64,000 bases of DNA, taken from Chloroflexota bacterium (GTDB taxonomy: Bacteria; Chloroflexota; Dormibacteria; Dormibacterales; Dormibacteraceae). The translations under genes were made by a program, and so were the position numbers. How positions within the stretch are numbered: position 1 is the stretch's first letter; each line of letters starts with the position of its first letter. The stretch lies in NCBI GenBank assembly GCA_005882115.1, contig VBEG01000039.1:40580-104579 (forward strand), read 5' to 3'. The notes below the pieces were generated by a model. It was not told the origin of the DNA and ran no database searches. It saw only the letters and a program-made list of their open reading frames with translations. Positions 7,821-64,000 of the stretch are shown here, one piece after another.

Positions 7821-8419
7821 TCAACGGCCTCGATCACGCTGCCCGCGAGCTGCCGGAATGCGGAAAGTGCGCGCAGGCAGGACTCGTCGTCGCGTGTGAC
7901 CACGTAGTAGAGGCCAAAGCCAAGCACCGTGTTCAGGACGAGGGGGACGAGCACGTCGCGAGGCACGGTGAGACGGATCCGGCCGTCTTCCTCGAGCCGA
8001 TCGAGCTGCTCCTGGATGACCTCGCGGTAGCGCGTGAAGAGCTCCGGCAGGTAGGCCCGCAAGCGCTCGGTGCGCGGCGCCTGCACCAGCAGGTCGAACG
8101 CCGCGAGCTGGACGTCGCCCAGGCGGCGCAGTGAGTCCCACAGCGACTCCACGCCCACCTCCAGGACCTCGAGCGGATCGGTCAGCTGGTTCAGGGTCCG
8201 GCGCAGCTCCTCGACGGACTTCGCGGTCAGGTACCGCCACGCCTCGACCAGCAGCTCGGACTTGGTCGGGAACCAGTACTGCAGGTTGCCGATAGCGACT
8301 CCTGCCTTCGACGCGATGGACCGGACGCTGGTGCCCGAATACCCGTTCTCGAGGAGGGAATCGGCCGCCGCGTGGATGATCTGATCACGGGTGCTCTCGG
8401 TGGCTGTGGCACCTGTCAT
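7817..8419 (-). CDS. TetR family transcriptional regulator
   Basis: 200 aa. The N-terminal helix-turn-helix (residues ~10-55: RDQIIHAAADSLLENGYSGT, then VRSIASKAGVAIGNLQYWF) is standard TetR. The C-terminal ligand domain is not assignable. It is the first gene of the operon with the small helical protein and the prenyl synthase. A palindrome over its own -10 box (8422-8437) suggests autorepression. It is divergent from the KDPG aldolase gene, which it may also control. Confidence 0.92.
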   Translation of the reverse strand: MTGATATESTRDQIIHAAADSLLENGYSGTSVRSIASKAGVAIGNLQYWFPTKSELLVEAWRYLTAKSVEELRRTLNQLTDPLEVLEVGVESLWDSLRRLGDVQLAAFDLLVQAPRTERLRAYLPELFTRYREVIQEQLDRLEEDGRIRLTVPRDVLVPLVLNTVLGFGLYYVVTRDDESCLRALSAFRQLAGSVIEAVE

Positions 8420-8421
8420 AC

Positions 8422-8437
8422 GTATGTACCAGCATAC
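8422..8437. promoter_or_regulatory. Probable TetR operator over the tetR -10 box
   Basis: GTATGTACCAGCATAC has 5-bp inverted arms (GTATG/CATAC) around six bases. It contains, on minus, the box TATGCT (8436-8431), eleven bases before the TetR ATG. A second perfect palindrome, CATACGTATG (8417-8426), overlaps the start codon. TetR proteins usually repress by covering their own promoter. That this one binds here is inference. Confidence 0.5.
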
Positions 8438-8460
8438 CGAGGGCCGGCAAGCGGCTGGGG

Positions 8461-8466
8461 GATAAT
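8461..8466 (+). promoter_or_regulatory. -10-like box of eda (GATAAT)
   Basis: GATAAT lies ten bases before the GTG at 8477, which supports that start and predicts an almost leaderless mRNA. Confidence 0.45.
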
Positions 8467-8476
8467 TCCCTGCGGC

Positions 8477-9109
8477 GTGCGGTCCATCGCCGAAGCTTTC
8501 CCCAACCGTATTTGCGGCGTGCTGCGCACCGAGAACGCCGACGCCGGATTTCAGGCCTGCCTGACGGCGCTCGAAGCGGGCGTGTTCACGATCGAGATCA
8601 CGAAGACGGTCCCGTCGTGCTTCGAGCTGATCAAAGGGCTCATCGCCACGACGGGAGGCAGGTATTCGGTCGGTGTGGGGACGGTGTGGGATCCGGGCGC
8701 GGTGACTGAGGCCAAGCAGGCCGGTGCCTCGTTCGTCGTGACGCCGGTTCTGCTGCCCGAGGTCGCCGACGCTTGCCGCAAGGAGGACATCCTGTGTGTC
8801 CTTGGCGCGCTGACCCCTACCGAGATCTACCAGGCGAGGCTTTCAGGCGCGGCGCTGGTGAAGGTGTTCCCAATCACACCGGTGGGTGGACCTCGCTACA
8901 TCGAATCACTGAACGGCCCGCTCGCCGGCGTTCCGTTCTGGGTTTCGGGCGGAGTGCCAATCGAGGACATAGGCGCCTACCTGCGGCTTGGCGTCAAGGC
9001 GGTGGGGCTCACGGGATCGCTGTTTCCTGCCGAAGCGCTCGCGACCAAGGACATGGAAACGATCCGGCGAAACGCCGAGCGGGCCGCTCGGGCGGCGGCG
9101 GCCGGCTAA
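8477..9109 (+). CDS. eda: 2-dehydro-3-deoxyphosphogluconate (KDPG) aldolase
   Basis: 210 aa from GTG 8477, the family's usual length. Splits KDPG into pyruvate and glyceraldehyde 3-phosphate in the Entner-Doudoroff or sugar-acid pathways. The Schiff-base Lys is in AALVKVFPI, the catalytic Glu in FTIEITKT, and the phosphate-binding GGV in WVSGGVPIEDI. The frame is open further upstream, but those residues (GGCGTCHTY...) match nothing in the family and cross the TetR promoter. No partner edd gene is nearby. A 4-hydroxy-2-oxoglutarate aldolase activity is also possible. Confidence 0.88.
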   Translation: MRSIAEAFPNRICGVLRTENADAGFQACLTALEAGVFTIEITKTVPSCFELIKGLIATTGGRYSVGVGTVWDPGAVTEAKQAGASFVVTPVLLPEVADACRKEDILCVLGALTPTEIYQARLSGAALVKVFPITPVGGPRYIESLNGPLAGVPFWVSGGVPIEDIGAYLRLGVKAVGLTGSLFPAEALATKDMETIRRNAERAARAAAAG

Positions 9110-9132
9110 CTCCAACCCGGCCCTCCGGCGCC

Positions 9133-9209
9133 GCCCCATCCCCCGCCTCCGGCGGGTACTTGCCCATAAATGGGGAAGAGTTCCACATCTCCCGACAAGT
9201 GGGGAGGCG
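9133..9209 (+). repeat. Palindromic element, copy A2 (intergenic)
   Basis: GCCCCATC, then the hairpin CCCGCC-TCC-GGCGGG (9142-9156), then ACTTGCCCATAAATGGGGAA and a degenerate third hairpin ending GTGGGGAGG. Same layout as A1 and A8. It lies between the convergent eda and pilin genes. Confidence 0.75.
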
Positions 9210-9220
9210 TTGGGTCCGAG

Positions 9221-9394
9221 CTAGCAGCCCACCTTGTAGTTGCACATGGTCGCGGTGATATTCGAGTACAAGTTCATCACCTGGCCGCCGGTCGTGATCA
9301 GCGCGATGATCACGATGAGCACCACGAGCGCCAGGATCAAGGCGAACTCGACCATGCCCTGGGCGCGCTGACGGGAACGAGCCCGGTTCAGCAC
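9221..9394 (-). CDS. Flp-type pilin, second of a tandem pair
   Basis: 57 aa from GTG 9394, which overlaps the stop of the pilin gene upstream. An ATG at 9412 is also in frame. Short basic leader, then QGMVEFALILALVVLIVIIA, the Flp/Fap pattern with Glu at +5 if cleavage follows the Ala of RAQG. One membrane helix follows, then a C-terminus with two Cys (TMCNYKVGC). It is nearly a duplicate of its neighbour. Flp pilins are processed by TadV and built by the Tad machine, none of which is in this window. Confidence 0.85.
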   Translation of the reverse strand: MLNRARSRQRAQGMVEFALILALVVLIVIIALITTGGQVMNLYSNITATMCNYKVGC

Positions 9395-9555
9395 CCCACG
9401 TGGTAGCTGCACATGGTGGCCGTGATGTTCGAGTAGACGTTCAACAACTGGCCGCCAGTCGTGATCAGAGCAACGATCACGATCAGGGCGATAAGCGCAA
9501 GAATCAGCGCGTACTCGACCATTCCCTGTGCGGATTGCAAGTTCAATTGGCGCAT
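9388..9555 (-). CDS. Flp-type pilin, first of a tandem pair
   Basis: 55 aa. Leader MRQLNLQSA, then QGMVEYALILALIALIVIVA and a C-terminal TMCSYHVGC. The ATG overlaps the stop of the hydroxylase FAD subunit (TGATG at 9557-9553), so translation is probably coupled to that gene. A TAAGCT box at 9573-9568, twelve bases before the ATG, could give it a promoter of its own. The two conserved Cys in both copies could form a disulfide. Confidence 0.85.
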   Translation of the reverse strand: MRQLNLQSAQGMVEYALILALIALIVIVALITTGGQLLNVYSNITATMCSYHVGC

Positions 9556-10562
9556 CACCGGCCTGAAAGCTTAACCACTGAGGCCCCCCCGTTGGTCGTT
9601 GCTCGCGCCAAAGCTTGCTCGACGACGACGCGAACCATTCGCTTCCGCCAGAAGTGGCTGAGGTCGGCGTTGTCGAGAGGTTTTGCCGGCTTGGCCGCCA
9701 GCTCGGCCGCTTCCCGTACGACGTCCGCTTCCAGCCGTTTTCCCTTCAGGAAAACTTCAGCCGCGGTCGCTTCCAACGGGTACGAGGCAACCGCCGACAA
9801 GACGATCCGGCAGCCGCTGACGACTTCGCCATCGAGCTGGAGCGCGACCGCCGCGCCCGCGACCGGGAAGTCGATCGAGCCACGCCGCCGGAGCTTTACG
9901 TAGGCGCTGCGCGTGTTCGGGCTCCCTTTGAGTCGAAGCGCGGTGACAACCTCTGACGGCTGCTTCGCCATGTACTCGATGCCGTCGTCGCGGTAGAGCG
10001 AGGCGACGGGAACCTCGCGCTCGCCATCCACGCCGACCAGCGTCACGACTCCTTCGAGGGCCATCGCCATGGGCGCAGTGTCCGACGAAGAGACGGCCCA
10101 GCACCGGGGACTGCTCGGTGCGACGAGACAGATGTCCCCATCTTTCTTCAAACAGAACCCGGCAGCCTTGCGCCACTCGTAGGTCATGTCGTAGTAGTTG
10201 CATCGCGTGTCGACGCAGAGGTTTCCTCCGATGGTGCCGGCGTTGCGCAAGGGGGGAGACGAGACGAGACCGGCGGCTTGTGCGTAGCCAGTGAAGTGTT
10301 CGTTCAGATGCGCGTTGTGTGCGGCGGCGCTCAAGGTTACGCCTGCGTCGATGCTGTGCTCGGCGGACCCGTTGCGGATCTCGCGCGGCAGGAAATCGAG
10401 CCCGATCAATGTGTCGATCTCGAACTGGCGGCGTTTCAGTTTTGGAAATAGGTCGGTGCCTCCGGCCACGAACATCGCGCTCGGGCCCAGACCCGCCGCC
10501 ATCTTCGCGGCCTCGCGCGCCGTCTTCGGCTGCAGGTAATTAAATCGCGGCAGTCGCAGCAT
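9555..10562 (-). CDS. Molybdenum hydroxylase FAD/[4Fe-4S] subunit, 4-hydroxybenzoyl-CoA reductase beta type
   Basis: 335 aa. The N-terminal FAD fold shows FVAGGTDLFPKLK and NAGTIGGNLC. A ~40-residue insert carries C-x15-C-x7-C-x8-C (CNYYDMTYEWRKAAGFC, then ICLVAPSSPRC). This spacing matches the [4Fe-4S] loop of the 4-hydroxybenzoyl-CoA reductase beta subunit and is absent from CO dehydrogenase or xanthine dehydrogenase FAD subunits. The enzyme probably dehydroxylates, or oxidises, an aromatic acyl-CoA. It is the last of three subunit genes, ordered 2Fe-2S, Mo, FAD. Confidence 0.88.
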   Translation of the reverse strand: MLRLPRFNYLQPKTAREAAKMAAGLGPSAMFVAGGTDLFPKLKRRQFEIDTLIGLDFLPREIRNGSAEHSIDAGVTLSAAAHNAHLNEHFTGYAQAAGLVSSPPLRNAGTIGGNLCVDTRCNYYDMTYEWRKAAGFCLKKDGDICLVAPSSPRCWAVSSSDTAPMAMALEGVVTLVGVDGEREVPVASLYRDDGIEYMAKQPSEVVTALRLKGSPNTRSAYVKLRRRGSIDFPVAGAAVALQLDGEVVSGCRIVLSAVASYPLEATAAEVFLKGKRLEADVVREAAELAAKPAKPLDNADLSHFWRKRMVRVVVEQALARATTNGGASVVKLSGR

Positions 10563-12952
10563 CGAGGTCCTTGGGCGGTGGCTCTACTTTGATCACCGGC
10601 GGATACGGAATCGACGGAAAGCGCGGCGGTCCGTAGCGCGCGGGCTCTCCTTTCTCTTTGCGGCGCAACGCCTCGACCACTTTCTCGGGCGTCACTGGGA
10701 TCTCGTCGATCCACACCCCAAGGGCGTCGAACACCGCGGCGCACAGCGCCGGCGGGACTGGGAGCAGCGGGCCCTGTCCTGCCTCCTTCGCGCCGTAGGG
10801 CCCTTCCGGGTCAACCGTCTCGACGATGAACGTCTCGATCTCCGGCGTATCCAGAAACGTGGGTGACTTGTACTCCAGCATCGACGGCCACTTGTGCAGG
10901 CCTTTGCGAAATGCCTGCTCTTCCATCAGAGCTTCCCCTAGGCCCATGTACACGCTTCCCTCGACCTGTCCCTCGACAAGCAGCGGGTTAATGGCGCGGC
11001 CCACGTCGTGGGCGATCCACACTTTGTTCACGCGCACCAGCCCCGTGCGCGCGTCCGCGTCGAGGTCGACTACGCAAGCGGAGTAGCTGTACGCGGGACT
11101 TGGTCCGACACCAGAGCCCTTGAACGGCCCGGCGATCTTGGGCGGCGTGTAGCTTCCCGCGCTGGTCAGGGTGCCGAACCGCGCCTCGGCCAGGATGCTT
11201 GCTTCCTCGAAGCTGAGGTCGCCGATGCGGCCGTCGGTCACCTCGACGTCGGCAGGGTCGCGGCTCATCTTCGCCGCCGCGGCCTCCACAAGCTTCGCGC
11301 GCATCTTTCGCGCGGCTTCGAGCGCCGCGTTGCCCGCCATGAACGTCACACGTGAGGAATAGGAACCCAGGTCGATGGGAGTCGTGTCGGTGTCGGCGGT
11401 TACCAGGCGGATGTCGGGAGGCTGGAGTCCAAGCTCCTCGGCCACGATCGAGGCCAGCACCGAATCTGATCCCTGCCCTATGTCCATGGCACCGCAGAAG
11501 ACGGTGATGCCTCCCCGGTCGACCTTGATCTGCACCTCGGAATGGGGCATATCGTTCCAGTAGATGGCCGTACCCGCGCCGGACATGTAGCTGGAAATGG
11601 CGAAGCCCATACCGTGACCCGCGCGCCTGGTCCGATCTTGATAACCGGACGCGTTCATCACGCGCTCGGTGCACTCTTCGAGTCCGCACGAGGTGACGCG
11701 TAGCCAGTTCACGGTCCTGCTGTAGGGCTTGACGAAGTTGCGCCGTTTGAGGTCGACCGGATCCAGGCCGAGGTCGCGCGCGATCTTCTCCAGGTGGAGC
11801 TCCAACGCGAAGCGCGGCTGCGGAGTGCCATGCCCACGCTTGGGTCCGCAAGGCGGTTTGTTGGTGAACACACGACAGCCTTCGAAACGGTAGGCGGGAA
11901 TATCGTAAGTGACGGTCTGGAGCGCACCCGTGTAGAAGGTGGAGGCGACTCCGTATGAGCCGTAGGCGCCTCCATCGAGGGCGCTGCGGAAATGCATCGC
12001 GGTGATGCGGCCCTCGCGCGTCACGCCGGTCCTGACCCACATCAGCACGGGATGCCGGCCGCGGTGCGCGTAGAAAACCTCTTCGCGGCTGAGGGTGCAC
12101 TTGACGGGCCGACCGGTGAGCATCGCGAGCTTGGCGACGATGATCTCGTGCGCGAAGGGATCGGTCTTTCCACCGAAGCCTCCGCCGTGTGCCGCTCCGA
12201 TCACGCGGATCCGGTTCATCGGCAGCTCGAGCACCTTCGACAGGGCGCGGTGCACGTAATGGACGACCTGGGTCGATGACCAGAGCGTCACCTTGCCGTC
12301 GACAAACGTCGCGATGGCGCTGTGCTGCTCCATCGGCAGGTGCGTGTTGCCCTGAAAGAAGAAGACGTCCTCGCGGACATGCTCGGCGCGGCTGAATCCG
12401 TCGTCCACATCTCCGAACTCCAGCGCCACGAACTTGTGGACATTGTTGGGGCCGCCGTAGTCCTGGACCCGCTCGTCTTTCGGGGGCTGTAGCGCGGCGT
12501 CGATCGACATCACCGGCTCGAGGACCTCGTATTCGACGTTGATCGCGTCGCAGGCCGCGGCCGCGATCTCTTCCTCGGTCGCCGCGACCGCAGCGATTGG
12601 GTCGCCGACGTAGCGGACCTTTTCGTGCTCGAGGGCGCGCTCGTCCTGCGTGACGGGGAGGATGCCGAACTTGATCGGAAGGTCCGCGCCGGTGATCACA
12701 GCGATGACGCCCGGGATGCGACGGGCGGCGGAGGTGTCGATCGAGAGGATGCGCGCGTGCGGGTGCGGGCTGCGCAGGATCTTGCAGTGCAGGGTGCGCG
12801 CCGGCAGCATGTCGTCCGCGTACACCGCGCGCCCGGTGACCTTCGTCGCGGCGTCGACCTTCGGCAGCGGCTTGCCCACCACCTTGAGGTCAGCGCTTTC
12901 ACCTCCCCGCCTTGCCGGGGAGGTCGACGGCCTAGCCGGCGGGAGGGGGTTT

Positions 12953-51701: not shown

Positions 51702-52619
51702 ATTTCGTTCGCGGCTGAGGTCAAAAACGAGATGGCGGGGCTTCTCCCGGCGCGGCCCTGCTGCCAGCTGAGCGAGCTGCTCGGCGTCTACTACGGCTCC
51801 CGCGGCCGCTTGCTGGGCAATCCGCCCGGACGGTCCGCCTATTTCTCGCTGCTTCGCAACGTGGTGGCGCGCAAGGTGGTGAGGCTCGGCCGTGCGGTCG
51901 CGCACATGGAAGCCAAGTACCAGGCGGTCAAGACCAGCAAGCGAATGTCGTTCTTCCTCGAGCTCGCCCTGCCCGCCGAGCTTGTACCGGCGTTTTCACA
52001 TCCGCCGGCCCGCGGCCTACCCGACGCCGCATGCGATCGCAAGGCGATGCTCCGCGGGCTCTTTCTCGGCTGCGGCTCGGTGAACTCGCCAAACACGCGG
52101 TATCACCTCGAGTTCGTCGCGCCGACACCGTCATGGGCGTCGGCGATTGCGCGCATGGTCGACGAATCGGGCGTCAAGGCCGGGATCACCAAGCGCGGAG
52201 GCCAGTCGGTGGTCTACGTCAAGGACGGTGATGGCATCGTGCGCCTGCTGTCGATCATGGGCGCGAGCCGCGCCGTCATGGAGTTCGAGAACGTGCGCGT
52301 GGTCCGCGAGGTGAGCGGCGAGGTCAACCGGCGCCTGAACTTCGAGACCGCAAACATCGGCAAGACGATCGGCTCGGGACTTCGCCAGGCCGCCGCCATC
52401 GGACAGCTCGAGGCGGAGGGCAGGCTCGACCGGCTGCCGCCCGCGCTCCGCGAGATGGCGCGATGGCGAAGCCAGAACCCAGAGCTCAACCTTGGCGAGC
52501 TGGCGGGGCGGATGAAGCTCTCGAAGTCTGCGGTCAACCACCGGCTGCGCCGGCTGCAGGAACTGGCGCAAACCAACGGCAATGGCGCCGCGCCCAAGCA
52601 CGAACGCCGCTCCGCCTAA
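51702..52619 (+). CDS. whiA: WhiA family DNA-binding protein, ATT start
   Basis: 305 aa. An N-terminal degenerate LAGLIDADG endonuclease-like part (LLPARPCCQLSELLG, RGLFLGCGSVNSP, YHLEFVAP) and a C-terminal helix-turn-helix (NLGELAGRMKLSKSAVNHRL). The conserved N-terminus SFAAEVKNEMAGLLP begins before the first ATG (51732). ATT at 51702 is the only codon fitting the homology. It follows GGAGGT (51689-51694) at a spacing of seven, which is ideal. WhiA controls division or sporulation in Gram-positives. It precedes gap, as in many of them. Confidence 0.93.
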   Translation: MSFAAEVKNEMAGLLPARPCCQLSELLGVYYGSRGRLLGNPPGRSAYFSLLRNVVARKVVRLGRAVAHMEAKYQAVKTSKRMSFFLELALPAELVPAFSHPPARGLPDAACDRKAMLRGLFLGCGSVNSPNTRYHLEFVAPTPSWASAIARMVDESGVKAGITKRGGQSVVYVKDGDGIVRLLSIMGASRAVMEFENVRVVREVSGEVNRRLNFETANIGKTIGSGLRQAAAIGQLEAEGRLDRLPPALREMARWRSQNPELNLGELAGRMKLSKSAVNHRLRRLQELAQTNGNGAAPKHERRSA

Positions 52620-52674
52620 CATTTAGCTCCGACCCCCACTCTTCAACTTTTTCCACACCTAGGAGCGCGCCCTC

Positions 52675-53685
52675 ATGGGACTCAAAGTCGGCATCAACGG
52701 CTTCGGACGCATTGGCCGCAACATCTACCGCGCGGCCTGGGACCTGAAGCCGGACTTCGAGATCGTCGCCGTCAATGACATCGGCGACGCCAAGACGTTC
52801 GGCCACCTCCTGAAGCACGACACCGCGCTAGGCACATTTGCCCCGGCGGTCAAGGTCGAAGGCGACTCCATCCACGTCGACGGCCACGCGATCAAGTTCC
52901 TCACTCAAAAAGACCCTGGCGAGCTTCCATGGCAAGACCTCGGGGTGGACATCGTGGTCGAGTCGACCGGCCTGTTCACCGACGCGAACAAGGCCCGCGT
53001 CCACATCGACAAAGGGGGCGCCAAGAAGGTTGTCATCTCCGCCCCCGCGACCAACCAGGACTACACCGTCGTCATGGGCGTGAACCACAAAGGCTATGAC
53101 GCCGCCAAGCACAACGTCCTCTCCAACGCGAGCTGCACGACCAACTGCTTCGTGCCACTGGCCAAAGTCCTGCACGACTCGTTCGGGATCGAGCGGGGCA
53201 TGATGACCACGATTCACGCGTACACCGCGGACCAGAAGCTGCAGGACCTCCCGCACAAGGACCTGCGCCGCGCGCGCGCCGCGGCCGACAACATCATCCC
53301 GACGTCGACAGGCGCCAACCGAGCGGTGGCCGAGGTGCTGCCCGAGCTCGCCGGCAAGTTCGCCGGAATCTCGTTCCGGGTCCCGATCCTCGATGTCTCT
53401 GTCGTCGACCTGACGGTGCAGCTGGGGAAGTCAACCACCGCCGAGGACATCAACGCGGCTTTTGAGGAGGCCGAGAGCGGCGAGCTCCGGGGCATCCTGG
53501 CGGTAAGCCACGAAGAGCTGGTGTCCTCGGACTTCAAGAACGACCCGCACTCGTCGATCGTCGATGCCCCGTCGACCGCGGTGCTAGGCGGCGACTGGGC
53601 GAAGGTTGTGAGCTGGTACGACAACGAGTGGGGGTTCAGCTGCCGCATGGTCGACCTGATCTCGTACATGGCGGAGCGGCTCTGA
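52675..53685 (+). CDS. gap: Glyceraldehyde-3-phosphate dehydrogenase
   Basis: 336 aa. NAD-binding INGFGRIGRNIYRAA, Asp/Asn selectivity segment VNDIGD, catalytic Cys in SNASCTTNCFVPL and His in TIHAYT. The VNDIGD and downstream pattern suggest NAD rather than NADP. A Shine-Dalgarno AGGAG precedes the ATG. First gene of a tight glycolytic operon (gap, pgk, tpiA, gpmA). Confidence 0.98.
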   Translation: MGLKVGINGFGRIGRNIYRAAWDLKPDFEIVAVNDIGDAKTFGHLLKHDTALGTFAPAVKVEGDSIHVDGHAIKFLTQKDPGELPWQDLGVDIVVESTGLFTDANKARVHIDKGGAKKVVISAPATNQDYTVVMGVNHKGYDAAKHNVLSNASCTTNCFVPLAKVLHDSFGIERGMMTTIHAYTADQKLQDLPHKDLRRARAAADNIIPTSTGANRAVAEVLPELAGKFAGISFRVPILDVSVVDLTVQLGKSTTAEDINAAFEEAESGELRGILAVSHEELVSSDFKNDPHSSIVDAPSTAVLGGDWAKVVSWYDNEWGFSCRMVDLISYMAERL

Positions 53686-54848
53686 AAGCTTCGATCAACT
53701 CCGTGGACGTCGCCGGCAAGCGCGTCCTTGTCCGCGAGGACCTGAACGTCCCCATGTCGAACGGCGCCATCGCCGACGACGCGCGCGTGCGCGCCGCGGC
53801 GCCGACGCTGCGACACCTAATGAAGCGCAGGGCAAGGGTGATCGTCATGTCACACCTCGGACGGCCGAAGGACCGTGAGCCAGACCTCTCGCTCAGGCCG
53901 ATCGCGGCCGATCTCAGCCGCAACGTCGGTCGCGAGGTTCAGTTCGCCGAAGACTGCGTGGGCGCGCCCGCGACGACGGCGGTGGAGCGGCTGCTTTCGG
54001 GGCAGCTGCTGTTGCTCGAAAACGTCCGCTATCACAAGGAGGACGAAGCCAACGACACAGCCTTCGCCAGGGACCTGGCGTCCCTGGGCGATCTTTTCGT
54101 GAACGATGCGTTTGCCGCGTCGCACCGCGCGCATGCTTCCGTCGTGGGCGTCGCCGCGTACCTGCCGGCGTTTGCGGGCGAGCTCATGGAGGCGGAGCTC
54201 GACGCTCTGCACAAGGCTCTCGACAATCCGCGCCGTCCCATGGTGGCGGTGGTGGGCGGGGCCAAGGTCTCGACCAAGGTTGGCGTTCTGCGGAGCCTGC
54301 TCCAGAAGGTCGACGCCCTGCTGATCGGAGGGGCGATGGCCAACACCTTTTTCAAAGCGCGCGGCTGGCCGACCGGCAGCGGGCTGGTCGAAGACTCCGC
54401 GCTCAAGGAGGCGCGCGACGTGGCCGAGGAAGCCGGGAACAAGCTGGTTCTCCCGGTCGACCTGGTGTGCGCCCGCAAGATGCAGGCCGGCGAGCCGCTG
54501 CGGATCCTGGAAGCCGACAAGGTCGAGCCCGAGTGGATGGCCCTCGACATCGGGCCGAGGTCCGTGGCCCTGTTCAGCGACAAGCTTCGTGGGGCAGGCA
54601 CCGTCATCTGGAACGGGCCCGTCGGCGTGGCCGAGATCGAAGACTTCAGCGACGGGACGAAGGAAGTGGGCGAGGCGATCGCGACGTCGGGGGCGTACAC
54701 GTTGGTGGGCGGCGGCGACACGGTCGCGGCGATCGATTCCCTCGGGCTTGGCGGCCGCTACTCGCACGTCTCGACGGGTGGTGGGGCCACGCTCGAGTAC
54801 CTGGAAGGCAAGGAGCTGCCGGGCATCAGGATCCTCAAAGAGGCCTGA
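53682..54848 (+). CDS. pgk: Phosphoglycerate kinase, CTG start
   Basis: 388 aa. Makes ATP from 1,3-bisphosphoglycerate. KASINSVDVAGKRVLVREDL matches the family N-terminus and begins right after CTG at 53682, which overlaps the gap stop (CTGA). The next possible start, GTG 53703, would remove the conserved KxSI-VDV lead. MSHLGRPKD, ENVRYHKEDEAND, VVGGAKVSTKVGVL and the C-terminal VGGGDTVAAID loop are present. Confidence 0.95.
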   Translation: MKASINSVDVAGKRVLVREDLNVPMSNGAIADDARVRAAAPTLRHLMKRRARVIVMSHLGRPKDREPDLSLRPIAADLSRNVGREVQFAEDCVGAPATTAVERLLSGQLLLLENVRYHKEDEANDTAFARDLASLGDLFVNDAFAASHRAHASVVGVAAYLPAFAGELMEAELDALHKALDNPRRPMVAVVGGAKVSTKVGVLRSLLQKVDALLIGGAMANTFFKARGWPTGSGLVEDSALKEARDVAEEAGNKLVLPVDLVCARKMQAGEPLRILEADKVEPEWMALDIGPRSVALFSDKLRGAGTVIWNGPVGVAEIEDFSDGTKEVGEAIATSGAYTLVGGGDTVAAIDSLGLGGRYSHVSTGGGATLEYLEGKELPGIRILKEA

Positions 54849-55639
54849 TGGGCAGCCGACCGCCGGGGATGCCGCTCGTGGCGGCCAATTGGAAGATGAA
54901 TCCGACCAACATCGACGACGCGCTCGACCTGGTGCGCGGGGTGATGTCTGTGGCCCGAGGGCAGGCCGACAAGGTGGAGGTGGCGCTCTTCCCGCCATTC
55001 CTGTGGCTCACTGCGGTCTCTGAAGTGCTCTTCGAGTCCGGTGTCAAGCTCGGCGCGCAGGACACCTTCTGGGAGATGTCCGGCGCTTTCACGGGCGAGA
55101 TTTCGCCCGCGATGCTCAAGCCGCTCTGTCAGTGGGTTATCGTCGGCCATTCGGAGCGCCGGCTCTTCGTCGGAGAGACAGACGAGATGGTGGCCAAGAA
55201 GACGGCGGCGGCGTTGTCGTGCGAGCTGAGCGTGATCATGTGCGTGGGTGAGCTGGCCGACCACTACGACGCGGGCACCTCGGATCAGGTGGTGTCGGCG
55301 CAGGTCAAGGCGGGCCTCGCCAGCTGCTCGGCGGATGACTCGGCGCGCCTGGTCATCGCGTATGAGCCGGTGTGGGCGATCGGCAGCGGCAAGAACGCCG
55401 ACCCGGAGCACGCGTACAAGACGATGCGCCTAATCCGCAAGATTGTGGGCGAGATGATCGGTGCTGGGGCGGCGCGCAAGGTGCGCATCCTCTACGGCGG
55501 CAGCGTGAAGGCCGACAACGTGCAGCAGTACGTCGAGCTGCCTCTGTGCGACGGCGTGCTCGTTGGAGGCGCGAGCCTTGTCGCCGACGAGTTCGCGCAC
55601 ATCGTCAAGGTCACGGCCGAGGTCTATGGCCACCGCTAA
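54848..55639 (+). CDS. tpiA: Triosephosphate isomerase
   Basis: 263 aa. Catalytic Lys in AANWKMNP, His in IVGHSERRLF and Glu in IAYEPVWAIGSGK. The phosphate loop ILYGGSVKADN is present. The ATG shares a base with the pgk stop (TGATG). Confidence 0.98.
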   Translation: MGSRPPGMPLVAANWKMNPTNIDDALDLVRGVMSVARGQADKVEVALFPPFLWLTAVSEVLFESGVKLGAQDTFWEMSGAFTGEISPAMLKPLCQWVIVGHSERRLFVGETDEMVAKKTAAALSCELSVIMCVGELADHYDAGTSDQVVSAQVKAGLASCSADDSARLVIAYEPVWAIGSGKNADPEHAYKTMRLIRKIVGEMIGAGAARKVRILYGGSVKADNVQQYVELPLCDGVLVGGASLVADEFAHIVKVTAEVYGHR

Positions 55640-56405
55640 GAATCCAGGGACCCTTGTTCTGCTCCGACATGGCGAGAGCACCTGGAACCTGGAGAACCTG
55701 TTTACGGGTTGGCACGATGTCCCGCTGAGCGAGCGGGGTGTGCATGAGGCGAAGGAAGCCGGGCGCTTGATGCAAGAGTCCGGGCTGCGGCCGGCCATCG
55801 TCCACGAATCACTCTTGCTCCGCGCCATCCAGACGACGCAGCTCGCGCTGGCCGAGATGGAGATGTCGTGGGTCCCGGTCAAGCGCAGCTGGCGATTGAA
55901 CGAGCGTCACTACGGCGCATTGCAGGGGCTGAACAAACAGCAGACCGCGGAAAAGTACGGCGAGGACAAGGTCAAGCTATGGCGGCGCAGCTACGACGTG
56001 AGGCCGCCCGACCTCGAGCCGTCGGACAAACGGCACCCATCGCACGACCCGCGCTACGCGACCTTGCCTCCCGAGCTTCTGCCGAACGCCGAATGTTTGA
56101 AGGACGTCGTCGAGCGGATGCTTCCTTACTGGTACGACGCGATCGTGCCCGACCTTCGATTGCAACCGTGCGTGCTGATCTCGGCGCACGGCAACAGCCT
56201 GCGGGCGCTGGTCAAGCATCTGGACGGCCTCGGCGACCAGGAGGTCGTCGAGCTCAACATCCCGACCGGTGTGCCGCGCGTCTACGAGCTCGGCGCCGAC
56301 CTTCGGCCGCGGTCGTGGCGGTACCTTGGCGACCCCGCCGAGATCGCCAAGCGCGCCGCCGCGGTCAAGGCGCAGGCGTCCGGCTCGAAATCCTCTACGA
56401 ACTAG
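55626..56405 (+). CDS. gpmA: 2,3-bisphosphoglycerate-dependent phosphoglycerate mutase
   Basis: 259 aa from ATG 55626, overlapping tpiA by 14 bases. Phospho-His in LVLLRHGESTWNLENLF TGW, the family's ERHYGALQGLNK segment (here NERHYGALQGL) and the second His in ISAHGNSLRAL. Interconverts 3- and 2-phosphoglycerate. Completes the lower glycolysis operon; enolase and pyruvate kinase are not here. Confidence 0.97.
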   Translation: MATAKNPGTLVLLRHGESTWNLENLFTGWHDVPLSERGVHEAKEAGRLMQESGLRPAIVHESLLLRAIQTTQLALAEMEMSWVPVKRSWRLNERHYGALQGLNKQQTAEKYGEDKVKLWRRSYDVRPPDLEPSDKRHPSHDPRYATLPPELLPNAECLKDVVERMLPYWYDAIVPDLRLQPCVLISAHGNSLRALVKHLDGLGDQEVVELNIPTGVPRVYELGADLRPRSWRYLGDPAEIAKRAAAVKAQASGSKSSTN

Positions 56406-56453: not shown

Positions 56454-57068
56454 ATGCCGTTTGAAGTTCCCAAGCTTGCCTACGCGTTCGATGCCCTCGA
56501 ACCGCACATCGACGCCAAGACAATGGAGATCCATCACGACAAGCACCACGCGACTTATGTGGCGAATGCGAACGCGGCCCTGGAAAAGCATCCCGAGCTG
56601 GCCAGCAAGACCGTGGAAGACCTGCTCTGGGGGATCAACACGGTTCCCGAGGATATCCGGACCGCGATCCGCAACAACGCGGGCGGCCACGCCAACCACT
56701 CGATCTTCTGGACGATCATGGGGCCGGGCGGCGGCGGCAATCCGAACGGACGCATCGCCGACTCGCTGAAAAGCACGTTCGGCAGCTACGACGCTGTCAA
56801 GGAGCAGCTACAGAAGGCAGCGGTGGGCCAGTTCGGCAGCGGTTGGGCGTGGCTGGTCGCCGACCGCCAGGGCAAGCTCTCGATCAAGGGCTTTGCCAAC
56901 CAGGACAGCCCGTACATGGACGAGCTCACGCCGATCCTCGGGGTCGACGTCTGGGAGCACGCCTACTACTTGAAGTACCAGAACCGGCGCGCGGACTATG
57001 TGACAGCCTGGTTCAACACCCTGAACTGGGACGCGATCAACGCGCGATTCGGCGCGATCTGGACCTAG
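56454..57068 (+). CDS. sodA: Superoxide dismutase, Mn type
   Basis: 204 aa. Metal ligands: His in [12 protein letters not shown], His in [10 protein letters not shown], and Asp and His in DVWEHAYYL. Gly before HANHSIFW and Gln in [10 protein letters not shown] are the MnSOD arrangement; FeSODs carry the Gln at the earlier site. A Shine-Dalgarno AAGGGGG precedes the ATG. Cytoplasmic, no signal peptide. Confidence 0.95.
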
Positions 57069-59725: not shown

Positions 59726-60913
59726 ATGAGCACGGCTGTGCGATTCGCGGAGAGGATGTCGCGCCTCGGCACGGAAGGCGCGTTCGAGGTCCTGGCGAGG
59801 GCACGCAAGCTGGAGGCCGAGGGCAAGCGCATCGTCCACCTGGAGATCGGCGAGCCGGACTTTGCGACGCCCGACAACATCGTCGAGGCCGCGATCGGCG
59901 CGATGCAAAACGGCTACACCCACTACACACCCGCAAGCGGGATCTTCGAGGCCCGCGAGGCTGTGGCGGCGTTTGTCAGCCGCATGCTGAGCACGCAGGT
60001 CGATCCCGCCGACGTCGTGCTCGTCCCAGGCTCGAAGAACGTCCTTCTTTTCACCCTTCTGGCCTGCATCGAGCCGGGCGACGAGGTGATCCTCCCCGAC
60101 CCGGGCTATCCGGCGTACGCGTCGCAGGTGAACTTCATCGGGGGTGTGCCGAAGACGGTCACGCTTCGCGAGGAGAGCGGGTTCCGGATGGACCTGGACG
60201 AGCTCGAGTCGCTAGTCACGCCGAAGACGCGGATGCTGATCATCAACACGCCACAAAATCCAACTGGCGGCGTGCTGACGGCCGAGGACGTGAAGTTCGT
60301 GTGCGATCTCGCGACCAAGCACGACCTGCTCGTCGTCTCCGACGAGATCTACAGCCAGCTCGTCTACGGCTTCCACCATGTCTCGCCCCTTTCGCACGAG
60401 GGCATGCGCGAGCGGACCGTTTTGATGGACGGTCTCTCGAAGTCGTACGCGATGACCGGCTGGCGCCTCGGCTACGCGGTGGCTCCTCGCGCGCTGGCCG
60501 CCAAGCTGGACACGTTGATGATCAACTCCTCGTCCTGCGCCGCGGCATTCACCCAGATCGCCGCGATCGAAGCTCTGGGATCGCCCGAGTCAGAGCACGC
60601 GGTGCGCCGCATGGTCAAGGTGTTCGAGCACCGCCGCGACCTGGTGGTCGACGGCATGAACGACATACCCGGTATTCGCTGCGCGCGGCCGCAGGGATCG
60701 TTTTACGTGTTCCCGAACATCGAAGGCACGGGGTTCGACGAGCACGAGCTGGCGAGCCGCCTGCTGGACGAAGCCGGCGTCGCGGTTCTGCCGGGGACCG
60801 CGTTTGGCCCGGCGGGGAAAGGGTTCATCCGCCTCGCTTACACGCAGTCGGAGGACGAGCTGACGCTCGGGCTGCGCCGGATCAAGGAGTTCGTGGCCGC
60901 CAACCGCTCGTAG
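59726..60913 (+). CDS. Class I/II pyridoxal-phosphate aminotransferase
   Basis: 395 aa. IVHLEIGEPDFATPDNI, TPQNPTGGVLTAED and the PLP Lys in DGLSKSYAMTGWRLGYA. The C-terminal Arg is in GFIRLAYTQSEDEL. Subgroup I aspartate/aromatic-type enzymes look like this; the exact amino acid is unknown. It ends 39 bases before the formate dehydrogenase gene. Confidence 0.93.
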   Translation: MSTAVRFAERMSRLGTEGAFEVLARARKLEAEGKRIVHLEIGEPDFATPDNIVEAAIGAMQNGYTHYTPASGIFEAREAVAAFVSRMLSTQVDPADVVLVPGSKNVLLFTLLACIEPGDEVILPDPGYPAYASQVNFIGGVPKTVTLREESGFRMDLDELESLVTPKTRMLIINTPQNPTGGVLTAEDVKFVCDLATKHDLLVVSDEIYSQLVYGFHHVSPLSHEGMRERTVLMDGLSKSYAMTGWRLGYAVAPRALAAKLDTLMINSSSCAAAFTQIAAIEALGSPESEHAVRRMVKVFEHRRDLVVDGMNDIPGIRCARPQGSFYVFPNIEGTGFDEHELASRLLDEAGVAVLPGTAFGPAGKGFIRLAYTQSEDELTLGLRRIKEFVAANRS

Positions 60914-60952: not shown

Positions 60953-62860
60953 ATGGATGGTGGCCTTCGCCGTCTGACCGAGCCGCTGGTCAGAGACGGC
61001 GGGCGCCTTCGCCCCGCGCCCTGGGAAGAGGCGCTGACCCGAGCCGCCGCCGGCTTTGAGACGGCGCGTCAGAAGGGACCTCAGTCGTTCGGCATGTTCA
61101 GCTGCTCGAAGACGACCAACGAGATGAACTTTATGGCGCAGAAGTTCACCCGCGCGGTCATGCACAGCAACAACGTCGACAGCTGCAACCGAACTTGACA
61201 CGCTCCAAGCGTCGCCGGTCTGGCGACAGTGTTCGGAGCGGGAGGAGGAACCTCGTCCTACCGCGAGGCTGAGGAGACCGAAATGATCATCCTTTGGGGC
61301 TCGAACGCGCGCGAGACCCATCCGATCTTCTTCCACCATCTTCTGCGCGGCGTGCGCAGCGGAGCGAGGCTCGTCGCCGTCGACCCGCGACGAACCAGCT
61401 CGGCCGAGTGGGCCGACGTCTGGCTCGGGATCGACGTGGGCAGCGACATCTCGCTTGCCAACGCGATGGCCCGCGAGATCATCCACAACCAACTCGCCGA
61501 CAAGGAGTTCATCGCCCGAGCCACGACCGGCTACGACGAGTTTGCGCGATGCGTTGAGGCGTACACGCTAGATCGCGCGGAGGCCGACACCGGTGTGCCG
61601 GCGGCCGCGATCAAGGAGGTCGCGCTCGCGTATGGGCGCGCCAAGACCGGGATGATCTGCTGGACGCTTGGCATCACTGAGCACCACAACGCGGTCGACA
61701 ACGTGGTCGCGCTCATCAACCTGGCGCTGCTCACGGGCAAGGTCGGCCGCTACGGCTGCGGGCTCAACCCGCTGCGCGGGCAGAACAACGTCCAGGGCGG
61801 TGGTGACATGGGCGCGATCCCGGCCCGCCTACCTGGTTTCCAGGACCTCGAAAACCCCGAGCTCCACGAAAAGTTCGCCCGCGCGTGGGGCGGCGCCGAC
61901 TTCCCATCGCAAAAGGGCTGGCACCTCAGCGAGATGTTCGAGGCGATGGATCGCGGCGAGCTGAGCGCGGTCTACATCGTGGGCGAGAATCCCGCGCGCA
62001 GCGAGGCGGACCAGACGCGCGCGGTACGCCTGCTAAGCGGCCTCGATCACCTGGTGGTCCAGGACATCTTCCTCACGCAGACCGCGGAGCTGGCGCATGT
62101 GGTTCTGCCGGCCGCCGCGGGGTGGGCGGAATCCGAAGGCACGGTGACGAACAGCGAGCGCCGCGTGCAGCGAGTCCGCCGCGCGCTGGAGCCGCCCGCG
62201 GGCGCGCGCGACGACATCGACATCATGTGCGACCTGGCGCGGCGGCTTGGCTGCGATTGGGGAAATCCGACGGCCGAGCAGGTGTGGGACGAGTGCCGTT
62301 CGCTGTCGCCCATGCATGCCGGCATGGCGTACTCGCGACTCGCCGAGCTCGGCGGCATCCAGTGGCCGTGCCCCGACGAGTCGCACCCCGGCACCCAGTT
62401 CCTGCACGCGAGGCTGTGGCAGGAGCCTGTCGAAGGGCAACGTGCTCCTTTCCACGCGGTCGATAACGATCCACCCGTCGACAAGCTGAGCGACGAGTTT
62501 CCGATCCGCCTGACGACGGGTCGCCGGTTGGACTCGTTCAACACGGGCGTCCAGACGGGCGAGTACACGTCTCCGCTGCGGAGGGGCGAGGCGCTTCTCA
62601 TCTCGCCGGAGGATGGAAAGCGATACGGCGTGGGCGACGGGGAGCGCGTCCGCGCGAGCTCGCGTCGCGGATCGGTCGAGGTCGACGTTCGGTTTGAGCC
62701 GTCGCTGCGGCCCGGGCTCGCGTTCATGACGCTCCACTTTCCCGACCAGGTCGCGACCAACGTCCTGACCATCGATGCGACCGACCCCAAGTCCGGCACG
62801 GCCGAGTTCAAGGCCAGCGCCATCCGGATCGACAAGATCCCCGTCAGCGCCACCACATAG
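60953..62860 (+). CDS. fdhA: Formate dehydrogenase catalytic subunit, selenocysteine-containing
   Basis: 635 aa when the in-frame TGA at 61196-61198 is read as selenocysteine (residue 82). It is flanked by NVDSCNRT and HAPSVAGL, the conserved U-H-x-P-S-V-A-G-L of Sec formate dehydrogenases. After it come NPLRGQNNVQGGGDMGA with the catalytic Arg, HVVLPAAAGWAESEGT and a C-terminal molybdopterin dinucleotide-binding domain (~residues 515-630). Sec is at 140 in E. coli FdhF, so ~58 residues are absent: the CxxCxxxC [4Fe-4S] region is not encoded. A TAG at 60911, in frame, excludes a longer start. The cofactor is a bis-guanine-dinucleotide Mo or W site. Confidence 0.93.
61196..61240 (+). promoter_or_regulatory. 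Selenocysteine TGA and SECIS-like hairpin
   Basis: TGA at 61196-61198 is followed, 18 bases on, by the loop GGTCT (61217-61221) on a perfect 6-bp stem GTCGCC/GGCGAC (61211-61216, 61222-61227). An outer stem CGCTCC/GGAGCG (61201-61206, 61235-61240) extends it. As I recall it, the E. coli fdhF SECIS has the same GGUCU loop, and the same 18-base distance from its UGA. SelB should bind this loop. Confidence 0.85.
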
Positions 62861-64000
62861 TGGACATCCGGACCACCGGTGGCCCCGCCACCGAAGAGGA
62901 GATCGCGGCTGTCGACGGACTGCTGGGCAGTCCCGAATCGCTATGGGAGGGTGGCGAGCGGCACCCTGCGGACGACCACGTCGCGTTCGGAGGGCGTGCG
63001 CTGCGCTCACAGCGTCACCTGCTTCTGCCAGTGCTGCATGCGATCCAGGACCGCGTGGGCTGGGTGAGCCGTGGCGCGCTCGAGTACGCGTGCCGGCGCC
63101 TGTCGATACCGCCGGCGGAGGCGTACGGGGTCGTCAGCTTTTACGCGCGCTTCGCGCTCGAGCCACGCGCCGAGGTGACGCTCCACGTCTGCGATGACAT
63201 CTCGTGCATGCTTGCCGGCGCGAAGGTCGTCGAGGGAGGGCGTCCAGTGCCATGCCTTGGCCTTTGTGATCGCGCGCCGGCGGCGCTGGTCGAGCGATCC
63301 GGCGTCGCGCACGATGAGCGCCAGATCGCACCGTTCGACCCGGCCGCGGATTGGATGCAATCGCCACCGCCAGCCCCCCGAGGGTCGCGTCTTATGGCGA
63401 CGAAGCTCCTGCGCCGGATCGCTCTGATCGACCCCGAGAGCCTCGACAGCTACCGCGAGCAAGGAGGCTTCGAGGCGCTCCGTCGGGCGCAAGAGATGGG
63501 CGCCGAGGCGGTGATCCGCGAGGTGACCGAGGCACGGCTTTTAGGCCGAGGCGGCGCGGCCTTTCCGACCGGCCGCAAATGGGAGTCGGTCGCCAAAGCC
63601 GCGACGCGTCCGCACTACCTGGTCTGCAACGCGGACGAATCGGAGCCGGGGACGTTTAAAGACCGCGTCCTGATGGAGGGCGATCCATTTGCGCTAGTCG
63701 AGGGCATGGCGATCGCGGCATTCGCGACGGGTTGTGAGAAGGGCTTCCTCTACGTGCGCGCGGAGTACCCGCTCGCCAGGAAGCGAGTGGAGGGTGCGAT
63801 CGCCCAGGCGCGTGCGGCCGGCCTGCTTGAAATCGAGATCGAGGTGCGGCGCGGAGCGGGAGCCTACATCTGCGGCGAGGAGACCGCACTCTTCAACTCC
63901 ATCGAGGGCAAGAGGGGAGAGCCGCGCAACAAGCCGCCGTTTCCGGTCGATGTGGGTCTATTCGGCAAGCCGACTCTGGTCAACAACGTCGAGACTCTCT
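62860..64000 (+). CDS. NuoE-NuoF fusion, NAD-reducing diaphorase subunit of formate dehydrogenase (partial)
   Basis: The GTG at 62860 shares its G with the fdhA stop (TAGTG). The frame is open to the window end (380 codons). Residues ~1-165 are NuoE-like, with a [2Fe-2S] site CDDISC and CLGLC. From ~175 on it is NuoF-like: LLGRGGAAFPTGRKWES (NADH/FMN), NADESEPGTFKDR and GAYICGEETALF. The fusion would take electrons from formate oxidation to NAD. The [4Fe-4S] end of NuoF lies beyond 64000. Confidence 0.9.
   Translation, partial: MDIRTTGGPATEEEIAAVDGLLGSPESLWEGGERHPADDHVAFGGRALRSQRHLLLPVLHAIQDRVGWVSRGALEYACRRLSIPPAEAYGVVSFYARFALEPRAEVTLHVCDDISCMLAGAKVVEGGRPVPCLGLCDRAPAALVERSGVAHDERQIAPFDPAADWMQSPPPAPRGSRLMATKLLRRIALIDPESLDSYREQGGFEALRRAQEMGAEAVIREVTEARLLGRGGAAFPTGRKWESVAKAATRPHYLVCNADESEPGTFKDRVLMEGDPFALVEGMAIAAFATGCEKGFLYVRAEYPLARKRVEGAIAQARAAGLLEIEIEVRRGAGAYICGEETALFNSIEGKRGEPRNKPPFPVDVGLFGKPTLVNNVETL

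Follow-up and report, generated by a model that had tools for sequence, protein, structure and literature searches.

In FdhF and FdsA, the metal is held by selenocysteine or cysteine, a histidine and an arginine act on formate, and the pterin hands the electrons on to a [4Fe-4S] cluster. The Fe4S4 domain of FdhF, the formate dehydrogenase H of E. coli, comprises the first 55-60 residues and is part of the catalytic chain; the lysine of a CxKG motif relays electrons in this enzyme. In Rhodobacter capsulatus FdsABG (6tg9) and Methylorubrum extorquens MeFDH1 (7vw6, 7e5z), the alpha subunit is likewise one chain. In MeFDH1, which uses cysteine at its active site, the partner of alpha is a single large beta subunit of 572 aa (7e5z_B).

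Among bacterial selenoprotein families, FdhA is said to have the widest distribution (PMC13188914), so that a selenocysteine site in such a gene is itself expected; in PMC5029168 the widest occurrence is attributed to FdhA and SelD. FdsA is listed with cysteine in PMC10100899, where annotation is said to truncate selenocysteine proteins nearly always. An operon of selenocysteine fdhA with nuoEF was described in 2016 from the planctomycete P1 and Plesiocystis pacifica, with 65% amino-acid identity between the two and horizontal transfer proposed; it was said to occur in no other NCBI genome at that time (PMC4807772). That operon pairs the same genes as the locus described here, and the section devoted to it mentions no split catalytic subunit. 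The Chloroflexi single-cell genomes DscP3 and An-B22 encode FdhAB, an NAD-linked formate dehydrogenase with a NuoE-like and NuoF-like beta subunit, and the An-B22 alpha subunit contains selenocysteine, as is predicted for our enzyme. FdhAB is described as a heterodimer, and the relevant section reports no separate Fe-S half (PMC5736913). For the Chloroflexi genome RBG-2, two selenocysteine formate dehydrogenases and two NuoEF operons are listed, unconnected in the text concerned (PMC3971608). The part of PMC13397495 that was available contains nothing on a split formate dehydrogenase. We found no report of such a split in the accessible portions of the open-licence literature, and no report of selenocysteine in Dormibacter in open-licence publications.

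The window, the whole 64,000-nucleotide stretch of DNA analysed here, lies on contig C30 of a 3.36-Mb draft genome (147 contigs, 96.5% complete). We read the gene at 60953-62860 as encoding the molybdopterin half of a formate dehydrogenase that is likely NAD-linked, with selenocysteine predicted at UGA 61196 by means of the stem-loop at 61201-61240; NuoEF and a separate Fe-S subunit would complete the enzyme. To this reading, which draws on sequence comparison, we assign a probability of roughly 0.85. A selenocysteine formate dehydrogenase with a SECIS element is ordinary; the part that deserves attention is the likely split and re-ordering of the catalytic subunit. The features are:

60953..62860, plus strand: fdhA, catalytic half, containing the molybdopterin domains and a single in-frame TGA but no Fe4S4 domain (Pfam, TIGR01591)
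61196..61198, plus strand: UGA predicted to encode selenocysteine 82 (TGA invariant in 81 aligned sequences, that of the window among them)
61201..61240, plus strand: predicted bacterial SECIS stem-loop (folding, covariation, covariance model 74.5 bits)
61201..61206 and 61235..61240, plus strand: SECIS outer stem, CGCTCC with GGAGCG, 6 bp
61211..61216 and 61222..61227, plus strand: SECIS inner stem, GTCGCC with GGCGAC, perfect 6 bp
61217..61221, plus strand: apical loop GGUCU (GGTCT), predicted SelB contact (18 nt past the UGA; GGT codon bias)
62860..64000, plus strand: fdhB, NuoE-NuoF fusion with a 2Fe-2S thioredoxin-like domain and an FMN/NADH domain (PF01257, PF01512)

Farther upstream, at 51732-56405 of the window, is an ordinary series of genes for WhiA, type I GAPDH, PGK, TPI and phosphoglycerate mutase. 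A superoxide dismutase-like gene (56454-57068; 247 bits to NF008177, below the cut-off of 363) lies about 4 kb before fdhA, hinting at an oxygen-exposed host.

The read-through product of fdhA (P0001, 635 aa) probably corresponds in function to the catalytic half of a formate dehydrogenase alpha subunit. Its Pfam content consists of PF00384 and PF01568 only (molybdopterin and dinucleotide-binding domains), with no PF04879 (Molybdop_Fe4S4). Against TIGR01591 it aligns from profile position 53 of 672 and scores 637.8 bits, as expected from the absent N-terminal domain; since the whole-protein cut-off is 666.25, we do not count P0001 as a complete member of the family. The selenocysteine enzyme FdhF of E. 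coli (1aa6, 1fdi) has an N-terminal Fe4S4 domain, whereas P0001 matches FdhF only from residue 61 on, and its predicted structure aligns to residues 55-693 (1fdi). The same structure prediction (mean pLDDT 74.5) aligns to residues 305-936 of FdsA (6tg9_A). Nitrate reductases reach nearly the same Z in structure alignment (38.4 vs 38.7; arsenite oxidases, 33.9), thus the fold alone does not indicate formate.

Although the gene had been described as a selenocysteine formate dehydrogenase, it is the molybdopterin half only, and the Fe4S4 domain is on a separate gene in relatives. In locus L062, taken from a 339-kb contig titled Candidatus Dormiibacterota, fdhA (8001-9908) is followed by a gene for a complete NuoEF fusion of 596 aa (9908-11698) and then, with an overlap of 8 nt, by a gene (11691-12560) for a 289-aa Fe-S protein. 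This protein combines a 2Fe-2S domain with a pair of 4Fe-4S motifs and a Molybdop_Fe4S4 domain. The Fe-S protein of a relative, P0003, carries PF04879 (its structure model is poor, pLDDT 53.9). The P0001 family aligns full length with formate dehydrogenases. On FdsA (6tg9_A), residues 25-304 are covered by the P0003 family and residues 308-931 by the P0001 family; thus, the catalytic subunit is cut between the proximal-cluster and Mo domains. The L062 Fe-S protein ends CVKGRFGFEFVQRRRG and P0001 of the window begins MDGGLRRLTEPLVR. It is likely, from these alignments, that the catalytic subunit is in two pieces, encoded in the altered order Mo half, NuoEF and Fe-S half.

In the window, fdhB begins with a GTG at 62860, overlapping the fdhA stop by one base, and is interrupted by the end of contig C30, which is also the window end, 1.1 kb past fdhA. 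No Fe-S orthologue was found in the draft genome itself, where the matches are a NuoG-like frame (30%) and another formate dehydrogenase (35%); this absence fits the contig end, without proving that the gene exists there.

The predicted system has the same domains in the same functional order as FdsABG and MeFDH1, and a NuoE-like and NuoF-like module stands beside the catalytic gene as in that type. The two differ in that alpha is one chain in FdsABG and MeFDH1, whereas the Fe-S and Mo domains are on separate genes in the relatives of our locus, forming two chains with the Mo half encoded first. By homology, formate would be oxidised at Mo or W bound by Sec82, with participation of His83 and Arg275; we take these three to be the active-site residues of formate dehydrogenases. 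The pterin would then pass the electrons on to a [4Fe-4S] cluster of a second polypeptide, in L062 presumably the one bearing C239, C242, C246 and C274 and the CxKG lysine. With this first cluster placed on a separate chain, electrons leaving the active site would have to cross a subunit interface in their first step. The onward path, modelled on FdsABG and MeFDH1, may involve two more [4Fe-4S] clusters and one [2Fe-2S] cluster of the Fe-S subunit, then FMN on NuoF, and finally NAD+. Of the 61 Fe-S frames obtained from the 80 loci most similar to P0001 among 184, 59 to 61 keep the ligand cysteines of the clusters, and 59 have the CxKG motif. NuoG-type His/Cys [4Fe-4S] ligands (C111 and H116 in L062) are not conserved among the Fe-S frames. 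The Fe-S frames of L073 and L087 go out of frame before the last cysteine motif, possibly owing to sequencing errors.

We consider it unlikely that the selenocysteine enzyme, while real, works mainly in CO2 reduction, uses ferredoxin or bifurcates electrons. Among solved structures, the Mo half is closest to the FdhF of a hydrogen-dependent CO2 reductase (7qv7, 475.9 bits), but the Fe-S subunit finds its best match in MeFDH1 (7vw6_A). The top match of NuoEF (P0002) is 9bov_B (407 bits), with 8oh5_B also high, both of which are presumably bifurcating transhydrogenases; among chains named formate dehydrogenase, however, MeFDH1 is again best (7e5z_B). HydB-type bifurcating subunits carry a C-terminal ferredoxin domain, which NuoEF lacks, as Pfam finds no ferredoxin domain past NADH_4Fe-4S. 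Bifurcation has also been proposed, in the section on the Chloroflexi FdhAB, for that enzyme with its similar beta subunit (PMC5736913). Our preferred reading is an enzyme that probably oxidises formate and is probably NAD-linked.

The original prediction held that two open segments in one frame are joined by the TGA at 61196 and that the residues around it are those of a selenocysteine site. Both statements agree with the sequence: an ORF at 60953-61198 is continued by the frame 61199-62860, with SCNRT-U-HAPSVAGL around codon 82. The frame is open for 94 codons upstream of the TGA, and the preceding in-frame stop is at 60911. For comparison, we used 80 named loci. Of 199 pattern matches, 184 were confirmed, and these loci are the best 80 of them, so that they are selected by similarity to P0001. 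Together with the window they make 81 aligned sequences, the rows of which are kin rather than independent. At identities down to about 66%, all 81 have the TGA, so that the formate dehydrogenase selenocysteine site is occupied by an in-frame UGA in each of the best 80 of 184 loci and the window; the following His83 and Arg275 are equally invariant (81/81 each). Two matches (G019 and G038) contain one additional stop.

It had also been anticipated that automatic annotation would shorten this gene, and the databases bear this out. A search yielded 7998 relatives from 8000 scored candidates, and the 120 that are listed are all 521-545 aa long, against 635 aa for P0001, appearing as shortened proteins of about 543 aa. 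Gene databases end proteins of this type at the internal stop, and the system is hidden as a result. Relatives in a plasmid collection are all below 60% identity (41.9% for the first listed).

The stem-loop after the TGA has the properties expected of a bacterial SECIS element. The E. coli fdhF SECIS has the loop GGUCU at the same 18-nt spacing. A perfect 6-bp stem with a GGTCT loop had been proposed to start 18 bases after the TGA; the stem and loop are there, as is the additional outer 6-bp stem, but 18 bases is the distance to the start of the loop, and the stem begins at 12. A 3-pair middle stem sits between the outer and inner stems. GGTCT occurs 127 times on both strands of the window, and the SECIS loop is the sole occurrence within a perfect 6-bp stem. 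The folding z-score is -2.45, with 5 of 200 shuffles equally good.

Codon usage points to constraint on the RNA. Synonymous codon choice is more skewed at the loop glycine (Sec+7) than at any other of the 298 well-conserved codon columns of the 81 sequences: the codon is GGT in 79 and GGG in 2 (best 80 of 184 loci plus window), whereas GGT makes up 12.6% of the glycine codons in these genes. Val+5 (GTC in 80/81), Leu+8 (CTG in 79/81) and Ala+9 rank sixth to eighth in synonymous bias. The Rokubacteria orthologues L083 and L099 have a GGGCT loop in place of GGTCT, with the stem retained.

We built a covariance model from an alignment (A1) of 40 of the 56 loci L076-L131, none of which is titled Dormibacterota or Chloroflexi. 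L078, L079, L107 and L115 were excluded by hand as Dormibacterota, Chloroflexi or grouping with them; L087, L090, L092, L094, L103, L110, L112, L113, L116, L117, L122 and L123 were left out by no fixed rule, several of these 12 being near-duplicates. Across the 40 sequences, the inner stem is 99.2% paired, with two pairs changing on both sides. The outer stem is weaker (79.7% paired), and there are misfits at pair 6-45 (broken in 19/40) and pair 15-36 (28/40). A scan of this site with a bacterial SECIS model had been suggested: the 40-locus model recovers it at 74.5 bits (E 9e-23; next site in the window, 17 bits), but Rfam SECIS_3 gives 15.7 bits against a threshold of 63, and nothing in the entire 64-kb window reaches an Rfam gathering score.

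We regard it as very improbable that the TGA is a true stop in a decaying gene or between two separate short proteins. There is indeed a stop codon, and a mechanical search for ORFs yields two, but the TGA is retained in 81/81 sequences (best 80 of 184 loci plus window) at identities as low as about 66%, and the synonymous constraint in the SECIS, the full-length family alignment with formate dehydrogenases and the complete sel gene set of the genome all speak against termination. Conservation and synonymous constraint lead us to reject a genuine stop or pseudogene. Decoding of the TGA as something else was also set aside, because a tRNA-Sec with anticodon TCA and the SECIS account for it. The prediction that TGA 61196 is read as selenocysteine is thus supported by comparative data, and is an ordinary one.

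The genome was predicted to have SelA, SelB, SelC and SelD, and all four were found. Genes for selA (518 bits, cut-off 267.9) and selB (346.8 bits, cut-off 242.25) are adjoining on contig C33. The tRNA-Sec (selC; 72.5 bits, gathering 47; anticodon TCA by ARAGORN) is on contig C109. A selD (344.2 bits), in the Cys form as read off at the Sec/Cys site, is on contig C39, and fdhD is present on contig C123. A lack of selB and tRNA-Sec, named in advance as grounds for refutation, does not apply because both are encoded in the draft genome.

Across 101 genomes (own included), selA was identified in 77 (E 1e-60), selB in 71 (E 1e-70) and the selenocysteine enzyme in 39 (E 1e-100). The enzyme is carried by 14 of the 16 genomes placed in the window's genus. 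Among the 39 enzyme-bearing genomes, 35 have selA and 30 have selB (strict E 1e-70), leaving four with no selA match, one of them 95% complete, and nine with no selB match at this strict threshold. As selA is also present in 42 of the 62 genomes that lack the enzyme, the selenocysteine trait is tied to more than the fdhA enzyme alone.

A second predicted selenoprotein is encoded in the same genome, on the minus strand of contig C100 (L133/L135). The fragment represents a formate dehydrogenase-N alpha subunit; it has a twin-arginine start, and a TGA lies between QQARV and HGPTV. The 420 aa present score 531 bits against TIGR01553, below the whole-protein cut-off, and a SECIS-like site at C100:626-673 scores 24.4 bits with the SECIS model. 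This gene offers a partial explanation for the selenocysteine trait of the genome. The SECIS scan of the genome with R1 covered 150 of 5271 first-look candidates, so other SECIS elements may be missed.

Gene order around fdhA was compared in the same 80 loci (best 80 of 184), which belong to a set of 111 that also includes our genome twice and 29 others, many of them duplicate records. NuoEF is downstream on the same strand in 79/80, the exception (L117) ending with its contig. The NuoEF start, extrapolated for 79 loci, falls between 68 nt inside and 157 nt after the end of fdhA (median 1). A single alignment covers the NuoE and NuoF parts in 77/79, and the fdhA stop touches or overlaps a start-codon pattern in 28/79. 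Wherever 2.9 kb or more is available downstream (59 loci), a gene for the Fe-S protein follows within 3 kb; overall it is downstream in 70/80 loci, and the contigs of the other ten end too early. Upstream of fdhA, no Fe-S match was found in any of the 80 loci, 73 of which have more than 1 kb there.

The sequences come from metagenome assembly, and contig C30 stops 1.1 kb after fdhA, but the idea that the absent Fe4S4 domain is an assembly artefact or an upstream frameshift is contradicted by independent contigs, with upstream Fe-S matches in 0/80 loci and a separate downstream gene in 59/59 with room (best 80 of 184), and we find it scarcely credible. An Fe4S4 domain hidden in-frame upstream was likewise rejected, given the 94 open codons here and the same 0/80 count.

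Record titles place the loci in 11 phylum-level groups, and the split is seen in ten, because the Bacillota row (L118) has no downstream room; four of the groups are represented by one row each, and some titles are doubtful. In a tree, the window is surrounded by orthologues whose records are titled Candidatus Dormibacterota or, with soil-depth names, 'Chloroflexi bacterium'; 'Chloroflexi' titles mostly nest with Dormibacterota. Together with the occurrence of the enzyme in 14 of the 16 genomes placed in its genus, this makes the source organism a likely member of Dormibacterota, a little-known phylum of soil bacteria. The tree requires 18 label changes, against a minimum of 10, which is compatible with some horizontal transfer; bins may also hold foreign contigs.

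It seems to us fairly probable that these genes represent a widespread, unrecognised class of selenoenzyme. In this class, the chain would be cut exactly between the proximal [4Fe-4S] and metal-Sec domains, the Mo-Sec half would be detachable, and both electron transfer and the relay lysine would cross a subunit boundary. The split is unexpected, as the same two stretches form one chain in FdsA and MeFDH1. A natural two-piece enzyme in ten phylum-level groups would allow a test of how much of the chain must be covalent, and the split Mo-Sec half might serve as a small catalytic module for CO2/formate chemistry. Many environmental genomes, those of Dormibacterota included, carry the selenocysteine trait together with a system that is likely for NAD-linked formate oxidation.
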